Shown piece by piece: positions 3,416 to 12,673 of a DNA stretch of 14,464 nucleotides. The stretch spans positions 1 through 14,464 of the forward strand of contig JACQVT010000502.1 of the NCBI GenBank assembly GCA_016209665.1. The letters are read 5' to 3'. Positions within the stretch are counted from its first letter, which is position 1; each line of letters begins with the position of its first letter. The notes under the pieces were generated by a model. That model made no database searches. It was not told where the DNA came from and worked only from the letters and a program-made list of their open reading frames with translations. Position numbers and translations under genes: made by a program. Source of the DNA: Planctomycetota bacterium (GTDB taxonomy: Bacteria; Planctomycetota; Phycisphaerae; UBA1845; PWPN01).

Positions 3416-3469
3416 AACGAACAAGCCACTGTCGTCCGACGATAGCCGGTACAGCGTCCGCCTCCTCCA

Positions 3470-3501
3470 GTCTCCATTCTCAATTCTCCATTCTCCATTC
3501 T
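3470..3501 (-). repeat. solitary heptamer array (half of a heptamer hairpin element)
   Basis: On the minus strand this reads as tandem 7-mers of the type GAGAATG/GAGAATT ending in GAGAC. Its last 20 bases are identical to the left arm of the cysS-ruvC element. It begins a few nt after the stop of the hypothetical gene (3506-3508). No matching right arm is found within the next few hundred bases, so this is a half-copy. It belongs to the same family as the elements at 7740-7837 and 8393-8494. Confidence 0.8.
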
Positions 3502-5655: not shown

Positions 5656-6156
5656 ATGGCGATCGACCGGGTTGGCATCGGGACGGACCTGCACCGACTG
5701 GCGCCGGGACGCAAGCTGGTCCTGGGCCACGTGGCCATCGACCACGACAAAGGGCCGGTGGGCCATAGCGACGGCGACGTGGTGCTGCACGCGGTCATCG
5801 ACGCAATCGCCGGAGCGGCCGGGCTGCCGGACATCGGCGAGATGTTCCCCGACACCGATCCGGCCTACCGCGGGGCCGACAGCGGGACGCTGCTGGCCGC
5901 GGCGCTCCGCCGGGTCGTCGAGGCGGGTTATGCGGTGGTCAACGTGGACGTGACGATCCACGCCGAACGCCCCAGGCTCAGTCCGCACAAGGCCGCCATC
6001 CGGGCCGAGGTGGCCCGCCTGCTCGGCGTGGCGAATGAAGCGGTGAGTATCAAGGCCAAGACCAACGAGGGCCAGGACGCAATCGGCCGCGGCGAGGCCA
6101 TCGGGGCCACCGTGGTGGCGGGATTGAGGAAACTCGAAGTGAGAAGTGAGAAGTGA
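5656..6156 (+). CDS. ispF: 2-C-methyl-D-erythritol 2,4-cyclodiphosphate synthase
   Basis: A 166-residue enzyme of the non-mevalonate (MEP) isoprenoid pathway. It cyclises CDP-methylerythritol 2-phosphate to the cyclodiphosphate, releasing CMP, and normally works as a homotrimer. The metal ligands are visible: D11 and H13 in GIGTDLHRL and H45 in GHSDGDVVLHAVIDAI. The loop DIGEMFPDTDPAYRGADS and the C-terminal KAKTNEGQDAIGRGEAIGA are family signatures. The ATG at 5656 fits the usual start. The last residues, EVRSEK, and the stop codon are written by a tandem GAAGTGA heptamer array, so the natural C-terminus has been rewritten by a repeat. It diverges from tyrS and is followed by cysS in the same direction. 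ispF-cysS adjacency is common in bacteria. Confidence 0.96.
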   Translation: MAIDRVGIGTDLHRLAPGRKLVLGHVAIDHDKGPVGHSDGDVVLHAVIDAIAGAAGLPDIGEMFPDTDPAYRGADSGTLLAAALRRVVEAGYAVVNVDVTIHAERPRLSPHKAAIRAEVARLLGVANEAVSIKAKTNEGQDAIGRGEAIGATVVAGLRKLEVRSEK

Positions 6157-6224
6157 GAAAGAGTGCAGGCGAAGGCGAGGTCGTGTCTTAACTTCTCACT
6201 TCGTATTTCGCACTTCTCACTTCG
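6135..6224. repeat. GAAGTGA heptamer hairpin element between ispF and cysS
   Basis: The left arm is tandem GAAGTGA 7-mers (6136-6159) and the right arm carries their complement. An outer 14-bp perfect stem (6135-6148 with 6211-6224) and an inner 10-bp perfect stem (6150-6159 with 6193-6202) are separated by an asymmetric bulge; the inner loop is 33 nt. The left arm contains the ispF stop codon, and the right arm ends 13 nt before the cysS ATG. Confidence 0.85.
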
Positions 6225-6237
6225 TCTCGAACGAATC

Positions 6238-7743
6238 ATGGGCATACGGATCTACAACACACTGACGCAGAGGAAAGAACCGTTCGAGCCGGTGAACCCC
6301 GGCCGGGTGGGCATGTACGTCTGCGGACCGACGGTCTACAAGCCGAGCCACATCGGCCACGCCGTCGGGCCGATCATCTTCGACACCGTCAAGCGATGGC
6401 TGACGCACCAGGGCTATGCCGTCACCTGGGTGGTCAACATCACCGACGTGGACGACAAGCTGATCGTCGAGGCCAAGGCCCAAGGCTGCCCCGTCGACGA
6501 GCTGGCCGAGCGCGTCACCAAGAACTACCTCGTCGCCCTGGACCAACTCGGCGTCCGCGGCATCGACCACATGCCCAAGGCCAGCGAGCACATCGCCGAG
6601 ATCATCGACATGTGCCAGCGGCTCATCGCCAAGAACGCGGCCTACGTGTCCCACGGCGACGTGTACTTCGACGTCTCCTCCTGCCGCGACTACCTCAAGC
6701 TGTCGCACCGCAAGGTGGACGATCAGCAGGCGGGCACGCGGCAACTGGCCGGCGGCGAGAAGCGCAATCCCGGCGACTTCGCCCTGTGGAAGGCGGCGAA
6801 GCCCGACGAGCCGCCCGAGGTGCAGTTCGACTCGCCCTGGGGCAAGGGCAGGCCAGGCTGGCACATCGAGTGCTCGGCGATGAGCAGCAAGTACCTCGGC
6901 CAGCCGTTCGACATCCATGGCGGCGGCGAGGACCTGATCTTCCCCCACCACGACAACGAGATCGCCCAATCGGAGGTCTGCTTCGACAGGCCGTTCGCGA
7001 AATACTGGATGCACAACGGCCTGACCCGGTTCAACACCAAGAAGGTCAGCAAGTCCGACCCCGAAATGGCCAAGCTGATGCAGCAGTTGGTGCTGTCCCA
7101 CCTGCTCACGAAGTACCCGGCGGAGCTGCTGCGGTTCGTGGTGCTGAGCACCCACTACCGCCGGCCGATCGAGTTCTCCGACGAGGAGATCGCGGCCAAG
7201 AAAAAGGGGCTCGACTCGTTCTACCGACTCTTCGAGCGGATCGAGCGGGTCACGGGGAGCGACCCTTACGCGGGCGGAGCGACGTTGGACAATCTGTTCG
7301 CCCCGGTCACCGTGAGGGTCGAGACGTTCCAGAAGCTGATCGCCGAGCACGCGGCACGTTTCGCCGAGGCGATGGACGACGACTTCAACACCGGCGGAGC
7401 GATCGGCGTGTTGTTCGAGATCGTGCCGGCCATCAACCGCTTCCTCGATGAGCAGCAGTTGGAGGCGGGCGGGAACGTCGAACTGAAGCCCGTGGCCGCG
7501 GCGGCGGTGCAGAGCCTGCGGTCGATGACCGGGCTGCTGGGCCTGTTCGAGAAACGACCGCCGGCCGAGACCAGCATGGCGGACACGATGGTCGACTCCC
7601 TGATGGACGTGCTCATCCGCGTCCGGGCCGAGGCCCGCAAGGCCAAGCAGTACACCTTGTCGGACATGGTCCGCGATCAGTTGGGCAGCCTCGGGATCGT
7701 CCTGGAGGACCGGCCGGGCGGAACAATCTGGAGAAGGAGTTGA
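6238..7743 (+). CDS. cysS: cysteinyl-tRNA synthetase
   Basis: A 501-residue class I synthetase that charges tRNA-Cys. The HIGH motif is HIGH at 38-41 (KPSHIGHAVGP). Zinc ligands expected for the family are present: C29 (MYVCGPTVY), C212 (WHIECSAM), H237 and E241 (FPHHDNEIAQSE). The second signature reads KVSKS (269-273) rather than KMSKS. The C-terminus ends LEDRPGGTIWRRS, a typical family ending, so the gene is full length. The start ATG at 6238 is chosen from the family's N-terminus (GIRIYNTLTQRKEPF); no Shine-Dalgarno sequence precedes it, as the upstream bases are the pyrimidine-rich arm of a repeat. The stop codon is the first TGA of the next heptamer array. It lies between ispF and ruvC on the same strand. 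Confidence 0.96.
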   Translation: MGIRIYNTLTQRKEPFEPVNPGRVGMYVCGPTVYKPSHIGHAVGPIIFDTVKRWLTHQGYAVTWVVNITDVDDKLIVEAKAQGCPVDELAERVTKNYLVALDQLGVRGIDHMPKASEHIAEIIDMCQRLIAKNAAYVSHGDVYFDVSSCRDYLKLSHRKVDDQQAGTRQLAGGEKRNPGDFALWKAAKPDEPPEVQFDSPWGKGRPGWHIECSAMSSKYLGQPFDIHGGGEDLIFPHHDNEIAQSEVCFDRPFAKYWMHNGLTRFNTKKVSKSDPEMAKLMQQLVLSHLLTKYPAELLRFVVLSTHYRRPIEFSDEEIAAKKKGLDSFYRLFERIERVTGSDPYAGGATLDNLFAPVTVRVETFQKLIAEHAARFAEAMDDDFNTGGAIGVLFEIVPAINRFLDEQQLEAGGNVELKPVAAAAVQSLRSMTGLLGLFEKRPPAETSMADTMVDSLMDVLIRVRAEARKAKQYTLSDMVRDQLGSLGIVLEDRPGGTIWRRS

Positions 7744-7837
7744 GAATGGAGAATTGAGAATGGAGACAAGGCTGATCGCCGCCGGAACGCCTCCGGCTCC
7801 GGACGATGTGTCTCCATTCTCTATTCTCCATTCTCCA
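7740..7837. repeat. GAGAATG heptamer hairpin element between cysS and ruvC
   Basis: Two 29-nt arms (7740-7768 and 7809-7837) are inverted copies with 27 of 29 positions matching. Each arm is made of tandem 7-mers GAGAATG/GAGAATT ending in GAGACA. The 40-nt spacer contains its own hairpin, GCCGGA/TCCGGC (7781-7786 with 7792-7797). The left arm begins on the cysS stop codon. The whole 98-nt unit could fold as one long cruciform or RNA hairpin. Confidence 0.9.
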
Positions 7838-7859: not shown

Positions 7860-7866
7860 CAAGGAC

Positions 7867-8388
7867 GTGATCATCTGCGGTTTCGACCCCGGCCTGCGAC
7901 AGACGGGCTACGGCATCATCTCCGTCGACGAGGACGATGCGATCAAGCTGATCGAGGCCGGCGTGCTGCGGGCCGACCCACACGCCCCGCTGGCCATCCG
8001 GCTGGCGGAACTGGCCGCGGGGGTGGACGAGGTGCTCGACGAGCATGACGTGGGCCTGGTCGCGGTCGAGCAGATCTACTCGCACTACCAGCGGCCGCGG
8101 ACGGCGATCCTGATGGCCCATGCCCGCGGCGTGATCCTGCTGGAGGCGGCCCGACAGAACATCAACGTCGTCCACCTGCCCGCCACGACGATCAAAAAGC
8201 ACGTCACCGGCAACGGCCGGGCGACCAAGGAGCAGATGCAGCGGGCGGTCTGCCAGGCCCTGTCGCTGCGGCGGCTGCCCGAGCCGCCGGACGTGGCCGA
8301 CGCCCTGGCGGTCGCGATGTGCGCGAGCGCGGTGTCGCGCCGCCCGGCGAAACTGGCGGCGAACAACGATGACCTCCTTACTGCGTAG
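7867..8388 (+). CDS. ruvC: Holliday junction endonuclease RuvC
   Basis: A 173-residue resolvase that cuts Holliday junctions symmetrically, working with the RuvAB branch-migration motor. The four catalytic acidic residues of the RNase H-like fold are in place: D7 (GFDPGL), E68 (VAVEQIY), D142 and D145 (PPDVADALAVA). The segments RTAILMAHARGVI and VTGNGRATKEQM are family signatures. It starts at a GTG with a good GGGAGG site; length matches E. coli RuvC (173 residues). The gene is sandwiched between two heptamer hairpin elements, 29 nt after one and 4 nt before the other. It is followed by ruvA on the same strand. Confidence 0.95.
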   Translation: MIICGFDPGLRQTGYGIISVDEDDAIKLIEAGVLRADPHAPLAIRLAELAAGVDEVLDEHDVGLVAVEQIYSHYQRPRTAILMAHARGVILLEAARQNINVVHLPATTIKKHVTGNGRATKEQMQRAVCQALSLRRLPEPPDVADALAVAMCASAVSRRPAKLAANNDDLLTA

Positions 8389-8392
8389 GAGG

Positions 8393-8494
8393 AATTGAGA
8401 ATGGAGAATGGAGAATGGAGACACCGCCTACCGCGGCCGGAAGGCCTTCGAGTTAGGATTGCCTGTCTCAATTCTCCATTCTCAATTCTCCATT
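8393..8494. repeat. GAGAATG heptamer hairpin element between ruvC and ruvA
   Basis: Two 31-nt arms (8393-8423 and 8464-8494) match as an inverted repeat at 28 of 31 positions. All three mismatches fall at the same variable G/T position of the 7-mer unit. The spacer is exactly 40 nt, as in the cysS-ruvC element, and shares a core reading GCCGGAA-N-GCCT-N-CG. The element begins 4 nt after the ruvC stop and ends 4 nt before the ruvA ATG. Confidence 0.9.
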
Positions 8495-8498
8495 GCTA

Positions 8499-9131
8499 AT
8501 GATTGCTCGTTTGACCGGCATCCTGGCGGAAGTGGCCCAGACCCATGCCATTGTCGATCTCGACGGCATCGGCTACGAGGTGCTGGTCTGCGGTTTCGCC
8601 GTCGGCGAGCTGACCGCTCAGCGCGGCCAGCAGGTGACCCTCCATACCATGCAGTACCTGGAAGGCACGTCGGCGGGCGGCAACATGATCCCCCGGCTGG
8701 TCGGCTTCCTGCACCCCGAGGACCGGGCGTTCTTCGAGCGATTCATCACGGTCAAGGGCATCGGCGTCAAGAAAGCGCTCAAGGCCCTGGTCATCCCGAC
8801 GGGCAAGCTGGCGGCGGCGATCGAGGCCGGCGACGCCAAGGCCCTGGCCAGGCTGCCGGGGGTCGGAGCCCGGGCCGCCGACCAGATCATCGCGGAACTC
8901 AAGGGCAAGGTCGGCGATTTCGCGATCGGGCAGACCGCCGACGGCGCCCCGCCGGCGGCCGCTGTCACCTGGACCAGCGCCCAGCGCGACGCCCTGGAGG
9001 TTATGATCGCCCTGGGTGAACGGCGGTCCGACGCCGAGCGCTGGCTGGCTCGGGCGATGCAGTTGTCCCCGGACACGGCCACGGCGGACGAGTGGGTCCG
9101 GCTGGCGTACCGGATAAGAAGCGGCATGTAG
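8499..9131 (+). CDS. ruvA: Holliday junction branch-migration protein RuvA
   Basis: A 210-residue protein that binds Holliday junctions as a tetramer and loads the RuvB helicase. The N-terminus MIARLTGILAEV is the classic RuvA start and fixes the ATG at 8499. Domain I (about 1-65) is the OB fold. Domain II carries two helix-hairpin-helix motifs, FITVKGIGVKKALKAL and LARLPGVGARAADQIIAELK. A flexible linker (about 140-155) leads to the small domain III that contacts RuvB. No Shine-Dalgarno sequence precedes it; the upstream bases are the right arm of a heptamer element. In many bacteria ruvB follows directly, but here a restriction-modification pair intervenes, starting 86 nt after the stop. 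Confidence 0.95.
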   Translation: MIARLTGILAEVAQTHAIVDLDGIGYEVLVCGFAVGELTAQRGQQVTLHTMQYLEGTSAGGNMIPRLVGFLHPEDRAFFERFITVKGIGVKKALKALVIPTGKLAAAIEAGDAKALARLPGVGARAADQIIAELKGKVGDFAIGQTADGAPPAAAVTWTSAQRDALEVMIALGERRSDAERWLARAMQLSPDTATADEWVRLAYRIRSGM

Positions 9132-9136
9132 GGCGA

Positions 9137-9145
9137 GGCTGCGTC
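9137..9145 (+). repeat. left 9-bp direct repeat of the R-M insertion
   Basis: GGCTGCGTC, 5 nt after the ruvA stop codon. The identical copy lies at 11488-11496. Confidence 0.6.
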
Positions 9146-9154
9146 TCGGGTGCA

Positions 9155-9170
9155 GCGACTCGCGCGCCCG
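9155..9170 (+). repeat. left inverted repeat of the R-M insertion
   Basis: GCGACTCGCGCGCCCG is, apart from one extra base, the reverse complement of 11432-11446. It lies 9 nt inside the left direct repeat. Confidence 0.5.
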
Positions 9171-9188
9171 ACATTGGGGCGGTCGTGT

Positions 9189-9199
9189 ACTCAGGGAGT
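9189..9199 (+). promoter_or_regulatory. possible operator palindrome upstream of the endonuclease gene
   Basis: ACTC-AGG-GAGT is an interrupted palindrome ending 17 nt before the endonuclease ATG. Such sites can act as autoregulatory boxes in restriction-modification systems. No controller (C) gene is visible, and the methyltransferase lacks an N-terminal helix-turn-helix extension, so the role is speculative. Confidence 0.2.
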
Positions 9200-9216
9200 C
9201 ATGACAGGGTGGTACT

Positions 9217-10206
9217 ATGGAGTATGGGGATACGGAAGCTGCCGAAGCCTTGCTCGCTTTGCTGGGCGACGTTCCTTGGGAAGCCGTCGAACTAGCCAGG
9301 GGGTACCTGGCTCTTCGTCAGTCCGGCGATGTCGACGCCGCCGCTCGGGAGGTCTTCCGAAACCGCATCCTGACCCTTACCCAAAGCCGGACTCTTATTC
9401 AGCGAACGATGACTGAAGGCTTTCTGGCGGTCCTTTCGCCACGGACGTTAATGCGTTCATCTGAGAACCCTATCACCAAGCTCTTTCCCGCGACCATAAC
9501 CGAGCAGCGGTTCCTCGAGTTGATAGACCAGCTTCAGCGCGCTAGGGCCGATCTGCAGTACTCAGATGATCGGGCCTCCGGCCACACCCTCGTCGACTTC
9601 ACCCTGATGGAAGGCGAGCACGAGCTTCCCATCAACATCAAGAACGCTGGAACAAGGTTTGAGAGCGCCAGGCAACTCGTTGACCTGGATCCCGACGACT
9701 GTGTTCCGATCCCGGCCTACAAGGCCTATGCGGCAGTCGAGACCGTCCCTAATCTCCTCTACGTCGTCTCGGTGGATTACACCCTCGTGTCGCGAATCAA
9801 CGACCTGCTCGCCACCATCCTCTCGCGGCAGGAGAGAATCGTGTGGGACTTGTTGACCCGTTTCCGGGGAGCACACCTCCGAAAGGCTGAGGACGCCTTC
9901 ATTCAGAAAACCGTCCTCAAGTATTGGGACTGGATTGAAACCCGGGTGGCTTGCCCGCCGTTTCACGTGGCGTCCGCGCGAAAGTCGATTCGGGTCCTTC
10001 AAACAAAGCCCCACCGTACCCCCGGCATCGGCCTTCGGGCCTGGGGTAATCGCGCCAATGCCGAGGTGAATGTCCATCTCTCGATCAGGGATGATATGAC
10101 GCCCTGGGAAAGCGTCAGCTTACGAATACTCAAGAGTGGATTGCAGGATATAATTCAAGCTGTGAACCGTCGTCGTCAGGAATGGGTGTATGATCCGGAA
10201 ATCTAA
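9217..10206 (+). CDS. probable type II restriction endonuclease
   Basis: A 329-residue cytosolic protein, identified mainly by its overlap with a DNA cytosine methyltransferase. It has a plausible PD-(D/E)XK nuclease core: D127 in TLVDFTL, a short hairpin, then INIKNAG with K142, in which Asn140 stands where an acidic residue is usual. Other notable stretches are LDPDDCVPIPAYKAYAAVE, LLYVVSVDYTL, RTPGIGLRAWG and AEVNVHLSIRDDMTPWE. The recognition site cannot be read from sequence, and I cannot tie it to a named enzyme. The ATG at 9217 has a modest AGGGTGG site just upstream. The gene overlaps the methyltransferase by 17 nt. Base composition is less GC-rich than ruvA, consistent with horizontal acquisition. 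A short cassette leader (9132-9216) separates it from ruvA. Confidence 0.78.
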   Translation: MEYGDTEAAEALLALLGDVPWEAVELARGYLALRQSGDVDAAAREVFRNRILTLTQSRTLIQRTMTEGFLAVLSPRTLMRSSENPITKLFPATITEQRFLELIDQLQRARADLQYSDDRASGHTLVDFTLMEGEHELPINIKNAGTRFESARQLVDLDPDDCVPIPAYKAYAAVETVPNLLYVVSVDYTLVSRINDLLATILSRQERIVWDLLTRFRGAHLRKAEDAFIQKTVLKYWDWIETRVACPPFHVASARKSIRVLQTKPHRTPGIGLRAWGNRANAEVNVHLSIRDDMTPWESVSLRILKSGLQDIIQAVNRRRQEWVYDPEI

Positions 10207-11485
10207 CAGCCGGCTCACGAATCGCCGGAATTACTCGCTCGTGAGCCTCTTCACCGGAGCTGGTGGTCTCGATTATGGTTTCGAGGCGGCCGGGTTCTCG
10301 ACCTGCCTTGCTCTGGAAATGGACCGTGACTGCCGCGAGACCCTGAGAAAGAATAGGCTCTGGCCGCTGATTAGCGAGGATATTCATCAAGTCTCATCAG
10401 AACGTATCCTCCACACCTCGGGTCTGCGGAAGGGCGAGGTTGATGTACTCGCAGGCGGTCCCCCTTGCCAACCGTTCTCGAAGTCCAGCTACTGGGCAAC
10501 CGGGGATGCCCGACGCCTCGGCGACCCACGCGCCAACACATTGTGTGCCTACATGAGGTGTGTGCGCGATCTTCTGCCGCGTGTGTTCGTGCTCGAGAAT
10601 GTTCACGGAATAAGCTACACGGGCAAGGAAGAGGGCTTACTTCTGATTGCCCGGCTCACCGAAGGGATTAATAGATCCGAGAAAGTGCAGTACTCGCTTA
10701 CGTCGAAAGTTGTGAACATGGCACACTATGGTGTGCCGCAGATCCGACAACGCTTCTTTCTTGTAGGCTGTCGGGACGGTCATCGATTCGCCTTCCCGCC
10801 AGAAACACACGTCGTTGCCTCCGAGACGGATCAGTTCCCGATGGTCGCACCTATCGGCCACCCAGCAACCACGGCATGGGACGCCATTGGCCATTTGGAA
10901 CGAGAGAAAACCGACGAGGATTTGAGGGTCAAGGGCAAATGGGCCGACCTTCTGCCGTCCATTCCCGAAGGCGAAAACTATTTGTGGCATACCAACCGTA
11001 AGGGCGGCGAACCACTTTTTGGATGGCGAACCCGGTATTGGAGCTTCCTTCTGAAGCTGGCAAAGAACCGGCCTGCCTGGACCATTCAGGCCCAACCTGG
11101 ACCAGCTATCGGCCCGTTTCACTGGAAGAACAGGCTGCTAAGCAGCCGTGAGATGTGCCGGCTCCAGACGTTCCCAGAGGACGTCACCCTATCCGGCGCC
11201 CGCTCGGCAATTCAGCGGCAACTCGGGAACGCCGTTCCTTCCCTGTTTGCTGAACTCCTCGGAAGGGCTATTCGATCTCAGGTTTTCGGGGATCCCGTCG
11301 TCGGCGCCCCTCGGCTCTTGGTGCGCCACCAAAGTGACACCCCGCCGCCGGAACCTCTTCGGCCAGTGCCGCCCGAGTTCTTGTCGCTCGTCGGCGAACA
11401 CGCTGAGCACCCCGGCACAGGAAAAGGAGTACGGGCGCGGAGTCGCATCCGGACGCGCGATTGTGGACTCTTCTTTGGACGGTAG
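10190..11485 (+). CDS. DNA (cytosine-5-)-methyltransferase of a type II R-M system
   Basis: A 431-residue enzyme that methylates C5 of cytosine and should protect the host from the adjacent nuclease. All major motifs are present in order: I LFTGAGGLDYGFEAAGF (20-36), II LALEMD, IV GGPPCQPFSKS with catalytic C93, VI FVLENVHG (ENV 136-138), VIII QIRQRFFLVG, IX SSREMCRLQTFPED and X RQLGNAVPSLFAE (GNAVP 346-350). The target-recognition region is about 195-310. The C-terminal tail (about 415-431, RARSRIRTRDCGLFFGR) runs through the right inverted repeat and ends 2 nt before the right direct repeat, so its last residues may be junction-encoded. It starts within the endonuclease gene. There is no N-terminal helix-turn-helix. 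Sequence specificity is unknown. Confidence 0.95.
   Translation: MIRKSNSRLTNRRNYSLVSLFTGAGGLDYGFEAAGFSTCLALEMDRDCRETLRKNRLWPLISEDIHQVSSERILHTSGLRKGEVDVLAGGPPCQPFSKSSYWATGDARRLGDPRANTLCAYMRCVRDLLPRVFVLENVHGISYTGKEEGLLLIARLTEGINRSEKVQYSLTSKVVNMAHYGVPQIRQRFFLVGCRDGHRFAFPPETHVVASETDQFPMVAPIGHPATTAWDAIGHLEREKTDEDLRVKGKWADLLPSIPEGENYLWHTNRKGGEPLFGWRTRYWSFLLKLAKNRPAWTIQAQPGPAIGPFHWKNRLLSSREMCRLQTFPEDVTLSGARSAIQRQLGNAVPSLFAELLGRAIRSQVFGDPVVGAPRLLVRHQSDTPPPEPLRPVPPEFLSLVGEHAEHPGTGKGVRARSRIRTRDCGLFFGR
11432..11446 (+). repeat. right inverted repeat of the R-M insertion
   Basis: CGGGCGCGGAGTCGC is the reverse complement of 9155-9170 with a single-base gap. It lies inside the methyltransferase 3' end, 41 nt before the right direct repeat, so the two repeat pairs are not symmetrically nested. 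Confidence 0.5.
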
Positions 11486-11487
11486 AT

Positions 11488-11496
11488 GGCTGCGTC
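11488..11496 (+). repeat. right 9-bp direct repeat of the R-M insertion
   Basis: GGCTGCGTC, 2 nt after the methyltransferase stop and 15 nt before the ruvB ATG. It is identical to 9137-9145. Confidence 0.6.
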
Positions 11497-11511
11497 AATG
11501 GTACAGTCGAC

Positions 11512-12561
11512 ATGGCACGCGAGCGCATTATTTCGGGTTCGGCCGGCGGCAACGACGAGGAGCGATTCAACGAATCCCTGCGTCCGGAGCGGATCGTTGA
11601 CTGCGTCGGCCAGGAGCGGATCGTCGAGCAGTTGCTGATCGCGATGAAGGCGGCCGAGCAGCGGGCCGAGCCGCTGGAGCACGTGCTGCAGAGTGGCCCG
11701 CCGGGGCTGGGTAAGACGACGCTGGCCCATGTGATCGCTCGCGAGATGGGGGCAATCCTCCGCATCACCAGCGGCCCTGCCATCAGCAAGCCGGGCGACC
11801 TGATGCACTGGCTGACGGAGATGAAGCGCGGCGACGTGCTGTTCATCGACGAGGTCCACCGCCTGAGCCGCACCGTCGAGGAGTTCCTGTACGCGGCCAT
11901 GGAGGATTTCCGCGTCGATTTCACGATCGACAGCGGGATCAGCGGCCGCACCGTCAACATCGCCCTGCAGCGGTTCACCCTGATCGGGGCCACGACGCGG
12001 ACGGGCCTGCTGACGGCGGCCATGCGCGACCGTTTCGGCTTGCAGTTTCATTTCGAGTTTTACTCGGTCGAGGAGCTGACGGAGATCGTCCGGCGATCGG
12101 CCCGCAAGCTGAAGGTCAAGGCCGACGACGGCGCCCTCGGCCTGATCGCCTCGCGATCCCGGGGCACGCCGCGGGTGGCCAACCGGCTGCTCAAGCGGAC
12201 GCGGGACTACGCCCAGGTGCGAGGCGACGGCACACTGTCACGCAAGACCGTCGAACAGGCCTGCGAGATTCTGCAGATCGACGCCCTGGGTCTGGATGAA
12301 CTGGACCGCTCGCTGCTGCGCTCGCTCATCCAGACCTACAACGGCGGCCCGGCGGGCATCGAGGCTCTCGCCGCCACGCTCGGCCAGGAGCGCGACACAC
12401 TCGAGGACGTCGTCGAGCCCTACCTCCTGCAGATCGGGTTTGTCATCCGCACGCGCCAGGGCCGCTGCGCCACCAAGGCCGCCTGCGACCACCTCGGTTT
12501 GCCCTTTGCCGGGCCGAAGGCGCCCCCTGAGGAGCAAGGCAGTCTGTTCGACGAGGATTGA
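11512..12561 (+). CDS. ruvB: Holliday junction branch-migration helicase RuvB
   Basis: A 349-residue AAA+ ATPase that forms hexameric rings and drives branch migration with RuvA. The Walker A motif is GPPGLGKT (62-69), Walker B FIDEVH (111-116), sensor 1 GATTR (159-163), and the arginine-finger segment is MRDRFG (171-176). The C-terminal winged helix (about 265-335) includes NGGPAGIEALAATLGQERDTLE. The start at 11512 is set by the family N-terminus MARERIISG followed by FNESLRPERIVDCVGQE; an in-frame start at 11461 would add residues read from the insertion junction. No clear Shine-Dalgarno sequence precedes it. The gene begins 26 nt after the methyltransferase stop and is now separated from ruvA, so its transcription may run through the R-M genes. 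Confidence 0.96.
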   Translation: MARERIISGSAGGNDEERFNESLRPERIVDCVGQERIVEQLLIAMKAAEQRAEPLEHVLQSGPPGLGKTTLAHVIAREMGAILRITSGPAISKPGDLMHWLTEMKRGDVLFIDEVHRLSRTVEEFLYAAMEDFRVDFTIDSGISGRTVNIALQRFTLIGATTRTGLLTAAMRDRFGLQFHFEFYSVEELTEIVRRSARKLKVKADDGALGLIASRSRGTPRVANRLLKRTRDYAQVRGDGTLSRKTVEQACEILQIDALGLDELDRSLLRSLIQTYNGGPAGIEALAATLGQERDTLEDVVEPYLLQIGFVIRTRQGRCATKAACDHLGLPFAGPKAPPEEQGSLFDED

Positions 12562-12572
12562 TCGCCTGTCGT

Positions 12573-12673
12573 CAGCGTGTGGACGTATGAACGTATGAAT
12601 GTATGAACGAAGACTCGAATACCGAGCGTTCGTTCACACTATCACGTTCACACGTTCACACGTTCACACGCTG
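12573..12673. repeat. octamer hairpin element between ruvB and the beta-helix gene
   Basis: The left arm has three tandem 8-mers GTATGAAC/T (12585-12608) and the right arm three CACGTTCA 8-mers (12643-12666). The ends pair perfectly, CAGCGTGTG (12573-12581) with CACACGCTG (12665-12673). The centre pairs AACGAA with TTCGTT and CTCG with CGAG around a 5-nt loop. The arm units differ by one transition, which gives G-U pairs in the minus-strand RNA, so folding is better in that transcript. It separates two convergent genes and could stop or stabilise their messages. No U-tract is seen. Confidence 0.85.

Follow-up and report, generated by a model that had tools for sequence, protein, structure and literature searches.

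A probable insertion of a Type II restriction-modification gene pair between ruvA and ruvB in a Planctomycetota genome

The ruv locus and its contents

The window, which is the whole stretch of DNA that was analysed, is an entire contig of 14,464 nt from a Planctomycetota MAG (4.87 Mb in 940 contigs, 77.55% complete). Its plus strand carries, in order, ispF, cysS, ruvC, ruvA, an ORF for a putative restriction endonuclease, an m5C methyltransferase gene and ruvB (Table 1); the names ispF and cysS are ones that we take from the look of the sequences, with no family search behind them. The window's ruvA can be aligned with the RuvA of a same-genus relative up to its C-terminus, and the ATG of ruvB follows the methyltransferase stop after 26 nt. 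No gene besides the endonuclease and the methyltransferase was seen in the window's ruvA-ruvB gap, and no transposase or integrase ORF lies within it. The first-pass annotation had described a restriction-modification (R-M) pair as the sole content of this interval, and that description holds: the two genes stand alone on one strand, and the genes that flank them are intact.

Spacers in the window often hold stuttering repeats of 7-8 bp, for example CTCCATT, GAGAATG and CACGTTCA, and the ruvA-ruvB spacers of two other genomes (G001 and G007) resemble these in kind.

Table 1. Positions of the features of the ruv locus in the window, with the evidence for each
Feature	Position	Strand	Evidence or remark
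ruvC, Holliday junction resolvase	7864..8388	+	PF02075, E=5.4e-38; 81% identical to same-genus copy (locus L031)
ruvA	8499..9131	+	TIGR00084, E=2.1e-39; 77% to same-genus RuvA over residues 1-209 of 210
ruvA-to-endonuclease spacer, 85 nt	9132..9216	+	GC 0.67, host-like; taken as holding the left junction
Left copy of GGCTGCGTC	9137..9145	+	Exact match
Gapped inverted repeat, left arm	9141..9170		24 of 30 columns matching
Putative restriction endonuclease	9217..10206	+	Helical N-terminus and predicted PD-(D/E)XK-like domain
DNA (cytosine-5) methyltransferase	10190..11485	+	PF00145, E=1.9e-49; 17-nt overlap with endonuclease ORF
Gapped inverted repeat, right arm	11432..11456		
Right copy of GGCTGCGTC	11488..11496	+	Exact match; 2 nt past methyltransferase stop
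ruvB, intact	11512..12561	+	NF000868, E=4.9e-135; 83% to same-genus RuvB over residues 1-349
Stuttering-repeat sites	3465-3501, 6136-6159, 6191-6224, 7740-7766, 7811-7837, 8392-8421, 8466-8494, 12583-12609, 12631-12670		

The methyltransferase and the endonuclease

The motifs FTGAGG, PPCQPFS, ENVHG, QIRQRF and GNAVPS are all present and intact in the methyltransferase, where we take them to play their usual roles. The part of the protein that is conserved in its family ends at HPGTGKG (11428), and the last 18 codons are not conserved in an alignment of 17 sequences. Solved relatives include 8yf3_A (E=9e-26) and M.HaeIII (1dct_A, E=1.6e-22). The catalytic motifs are common to the window's enzyme and to M.HaeIII and M.HhaI, but the matches to these two span only about residues 16-209 of it, and a target sequence is for that reason not transferable from them.

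The endonuclease matched no family at E<=0.001 in Pfam, in NCBIfam or in PADLOC, and a comparison with PDB sequences gave a single meaningless match (E=0.46). Its structural model (pLDDT 87.9) matches structures of the PD-(D/E)XK type, with no Foldseek hit at E<=0.001, and the domain is accordingly given here as a predicted PD-(D/E)XK-like one. In 30 aligned homologs E96, D127 and K142 are invariant and N140 is present in 29, which gives the pattern D-x12-N-x-K. PD-(D/E)XK nucleases usually have E or D before x-K, whereas the window's endonuclease has N there, as well as an extra helical N-terminus; the N-x-K form is that of MspI. No sequence similarity was found between the endonuclease and archaeal Hjc resolvases, the fusellovirus nuclease D212, RecU or EcoRV-type enzymes. 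An Hjc-like fold is widespread among nucleases. The idea that such a fold ties the endonuclease functionally to the ruv genes was considered and rejected, since resolvases and restriction enzymes are both among the fold matches and no ruv gene was found in the sister-locus flanks searched.

A methyltransferase gene adjoins the endonuclease gene in 21 of 22 sister loci, the remaining one being cut by a contig end, and the two genes are on the same strand in 20 loci and on opposite strands in one (L054). By their record titles the paired loci belong to Bacillota, cyanobacteria (Hormoscilla), Omnitrophota, Planctomycetota, Verrucomicrobia, KSB1, deltaproteobacteria, Nitrospirae and Chloroflexi, and the neighbourhoods of the pair vary among these phyla. 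Searches of plasmids and phages gave no match to the endonuclease, and of 23 pattern matches in viral contigs not one could be confirmed. The opposite-strand locus, from a Chloroflexi MAG (L054, 6001-7718), holds a distant relative of the endonuclease (36% over residues 127-329). In a Syntrophaceae MAG (L040, 5515-5979) an ORF directly upstream of the pair is presumably Vsr-like, to judge from its sequence pattern. The least expected part of the locus is this endonuclease family, which has no match in the libraries searched (Pfam, NCBIfam and PADLOC).

Relatives, composition and the case for insertion

In the same-genus relative (G001) ispF, cysS, ruvC, ruvA and ruvB are colinear with their counterparts in the window, at 77-83% protein identity, and the ruvA-ruvB spacer is 78 nt long and holds no R-M match. 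This empty form, in which ruvA stands directly before ruvB with no match to either the endonuclease or the methyltransferase, was found in all 10 testable members (the same-genus relative included) of a set of 12 from the family, with spacers of 1-471 nt; in the other two (G002 and G011) a contig end interrupts the locus.

The spacing of ruvA and ruvB was compared across 57 of 61 genomes, two of which (G016 and G020) entered with partial RuvB matches. The two genes share a contig and a strand and are no more than 2.4 kb apart in 49 of the 57 (the window included), at a median spacing of 105 nt by match ends, and the widest gap among these 49 is that of the window, at 2383 nt. The genes are on different contigs or far apart in the other eight, some of which perhaps reflect mere contig breaks; in one of them (G024) ruvA lies at a contig edge. 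In G043 the two genes are far apart on one contig.

Other ORFs were also observed in the ruvA-ruvB gap of some members of the order, and their names were read off the sequences rather than obtained from a family search. Two related ORFs of secreted type fill a 1.9-kb gap in G030 (L059, 1642-3218), and a zinc-ribbon protein of membrane type separates ruvA from ruvB in genomes of two genera that belong to the same family (G055, L061, 1574-2275; G028, L020, in a 675-nt gap). The gap of G021 holds ORFs of unclear kind.

The endonuclease is rare: it was present in two of the 297 genomes searched, one being that of the window. The other carrier (G054), from the same order, has the endonuclease on one contig (C9) and ruvB on another (C50). 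No close donor was found, the best endonuclease match being at 61% and the best methyltransferase match at 67%.

The GC content and GC3 of the endonuclease gene (0.576 and 0.682) and of the methyltransferase gene (0.588 and 0.648) are lower than those of ruvA (0.689 and 0.891) and ruvB (0.672 and 0.886), as the first-pass annotation had said of GC. The mean GC3 of a sample of ORFs from the genome was 0.84. This sample took in ORFs of 150 aa or more, drawn from the rest of the window and from 13 stretches elsewhere in the genome, with crude ORF picking and a non-random choice of stretches, and GC3 was as low as in the R-M genes in five of its 86 ORFs, so that composition by itself is not decisive.

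The proposal that the R-M pair was inserted into a once continuous ruvA-ruvB cluster is well supported by the empty form in every testable relative, by the rarity of the endonuclease and by the deviant GC3 taken together, and the simplest reading of these comparisons is that the pair was gained on the lineage of the window. We estimate a probability of about 0.85 that the locus holds a Type II R-M pair, intact in appearance and gained by horizontal transfer, which was inserted into the ruvA-ruvB spacer after the split from the same-genus relative. In such an event the pair would have entered the spacer with neither ruvA nor ruvB being broken; the methyltransferase would then mark cytosines in its own recognition sites, and the endonuclease would cut incoming DNA that is unmethylated. 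The sequence that is seen could have arisen in any of three ways: by illegitimate recombination, by joining through microhomology at GGCTGCGTC, or by an event akin to transposition that duplicated 9 bp.

The 9-bp repeat and the mechanism of insertion

The sequence GGCTGCGTC occurs exactly twice in the window. The stop of ruvA ends at 9131 and the ATG of ruvB begins at 11512, which places the copies 5 nt past ruvA and 15 nt short of ruvB, and collapse of the repeat leaves 5+9+15 = 29 nt between the genes. These distances agree with the first-pass annotation, which had picked the repeat after the fact and proposed that it is a target-site duplication.

The chance expectation for such a repeat was computed from pairs of real segments drawn from the window and the same-genus locus, and from mononucleotide-shuffled spacers. 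At least 9 bp were shared by 325 of 20000 real pairs of 85 x 26 nt (1.6%) and by 953 of 20000 of 85 x 72 nt (4.8%), and by 118 of 20000 (0.6%) and, with the wider right segment, 475 of 20000 (2.4%) of the shuffled pairs. In the genome as a whole there are 68 forward and 74 reverse sites for GGCTGCGTC, against 53 and 57 for the reversed control. The repeat exceeds chance weakly.

None of 25 ruvA-ruvB junctions from relatives contained GGCTGCGTC, a result that counts weakly against a duplication under the refutation test set by the first-pass annotation. Divergence of the spacers prevents their alignment even between members of one genus, some of them consisting of short stuttering repeats, and the power of the test is low because even the same-genus spacer, 78 nt of such stutters, has no recognizable likeness to that of the window. 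The test began with 30 loci, from which five with no ruvA in reach were dropped (L012, L014, L017, L028 and L001, the window's own short piece).

A gapped inverted repeat is also present (Table 1). Among mononucleotide shuffles 3 of 4000 reached its score, and among random pairs of real segments 53 of 4000 did. The left arm runs into the left GGCTGCGTC, while 31 nt separate the end of the right arm from the right copy, so that the two repeats do not abut. Direct and inverted end repeats were not exceptional in 16 of the 22 sister cassettes, the ends of which were set roughly from match ends; the fraction of 300 shuffles that equalled the observed value was never below 0.12. Three of the 16 (L035, L047 and L052) derive from Hormoscilla genomes that are related to one another, so that they do not count as independent, and in another (L040) the left edge may be further out, since the Vsr-like ORF abuts the pair. 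The remaining six (L044, L046, L051, L053, L054 and L055) were dropped for an incomplete flank or cassette or for opposite strands.

An imperfect direct repeat of greater length (19 of 24 columns) was rejected as unexceptional, its score being reached by 159 of 4000 random real pairs and 82 of 4000 shuffles, and the same 2.5 kb contain two longer direct repeats whose copies are less alike. The cassette ends were likewise considered as copies of a genomic repeat and rejected, there being no second copy in the genome and one 16-nt match at E=0.47.

These results bear on one mechanism within the preferred explanation, namely that the pair came in as an R-M unit by a transposition-like event, with GGCTGCGTC as the 9-bp target-site duplication that this left. 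The exact repeat falls inside both possible junction intervals (9132-9216 and 11429-11511), a common 9-mer turned up in no more than 0.6-4.8% of the random or shuffled pairs used for comparison, the inverted repeat is rare among shuffles, and a review describes R-M units that are flanked by short target duplications and have inverted repeats of imperfect match (PMC3874152). However, the inverted repeat is less rare among real pairs, its arms do not abut the duplication as transposon ends should, the sister cassettes and the empty junctions offer no parallel, the cassette ends occur once in the genome, and the gap holds no gene for a transposase or integrase. What stands of the earlier proposal is the exact repeat; its status as a duplication is not borne out by the junctions, at their low power, or by the 16 sister cassettes, in which there is no comparable repeat. 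A 9-bp target-site duplication is possible, and the transposition-like mechanism is a tentative reading that we expect to be wrong rather than right.

Comparison with known systems

Chromosomal insertions of stand-alone Type II R-M units were reportedly described by Furuta, Abe and Kobayashi in 2010 and by Nobusato et al. in 2000. Like the insertion in the window, such units are bare chromosomal pairs that lack mobility genes, are absent from relatives and have a short flanking direct repeat. The window differs from them in that there is no near-identical empty site to compare, the duplication is a candidate only, and the inverted repeat does not abut the direct repeat. In the IS-linked movement of the PaeR7I R-M genes in E. 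coli, where some products had a 9-bp target duplication (PMC3031569), R-M genes likewise entered the chromosome, but no IS lies in or beside the insertion in the window. A literature search of titles and abstract openings found no report of R-M genes between ruvA and ruvB.

It is improbable that a bare two-gene R-M unit, with its endonuclease of unnamed family, moved itself into the ruv spacer without a transposase, generating a 9-bp duplication and bringing restriction and repair into co-transcription. With short target duplications beside R-M units already on record, even this bolder reading would add one more example to a known kind of event. The insertion itself is taken to be real and of an ordinary kind.

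A misassembly of the contig, in which an R-M fragment from elsewhere would have been joined wrongly to the MAG's ruv genes, is also improbable, for although the MAG is fragmented and incomplete, the GC3 of the R-M genes is deviant and the arrangement is seen in the window genome only, the joins lie outside ruvA and ruvB, both of which align over nearly their whole length with the same-genus copies, and a chimaera would require two clean joins inside spacers.

Transcription and the link to ruvB

A consensus scan of 8400-11600 for terminator-like sites and for promoters of the sigma-70-like type found such sites on the minus strand only, and none on the plus strand. Because the genes lie on one strand with no forward terminator-like site in between, ruvC, ruvA, the endonuclease gene, the methyltransferase gene and ruvB may be on a shared transcript, and the gene layout makes it plausible that transcription starting ahead of ruvC-ruvA would continue through the pair as far as ruvB.

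The first-pass annotation had remarked that the insertion would put ruvB, which repairs the kind of break that a restriction enzyme can cause, downstream of such an enzyme and perhaps under co-expression with it. The layout is as described and co-transcription is possible, but apart from position nothing supports the repair link. That the pair came to lie, and stayed, between ruvA and ruvB for the benefit of co-expression with a Holliday-junction helicase, which would help the cell to repair the breaks made by its own endonuclease, is very improbable, since the shared strand, the 26-nt spacing and the lack of a forward terminator-like site are set against the flanks of 22 sister loci, at most 6 kb long and in several cases far shorter, in which tblastn with the window's RuvA, RuvB and RuvC found no ruv gene, against the other ORFs that occupy the same gap in G030, G028 and G055, and against the wide separation of ruvA and ruvB in G043.

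Implications

The locus shows clearly, for a group that has had little study, how a conserved cluster of repair genes can gain a bare R-M pair in its interior while the genes of the cluster stay unbroken. It also exposes an endonuclease family that stands beside one type of m5C methyltransferase in many phyla and is unmatched in the libraries searched. If the duplication is true, the locus would in addition join the cases which suggest that R-M pairs move without a carrier element.
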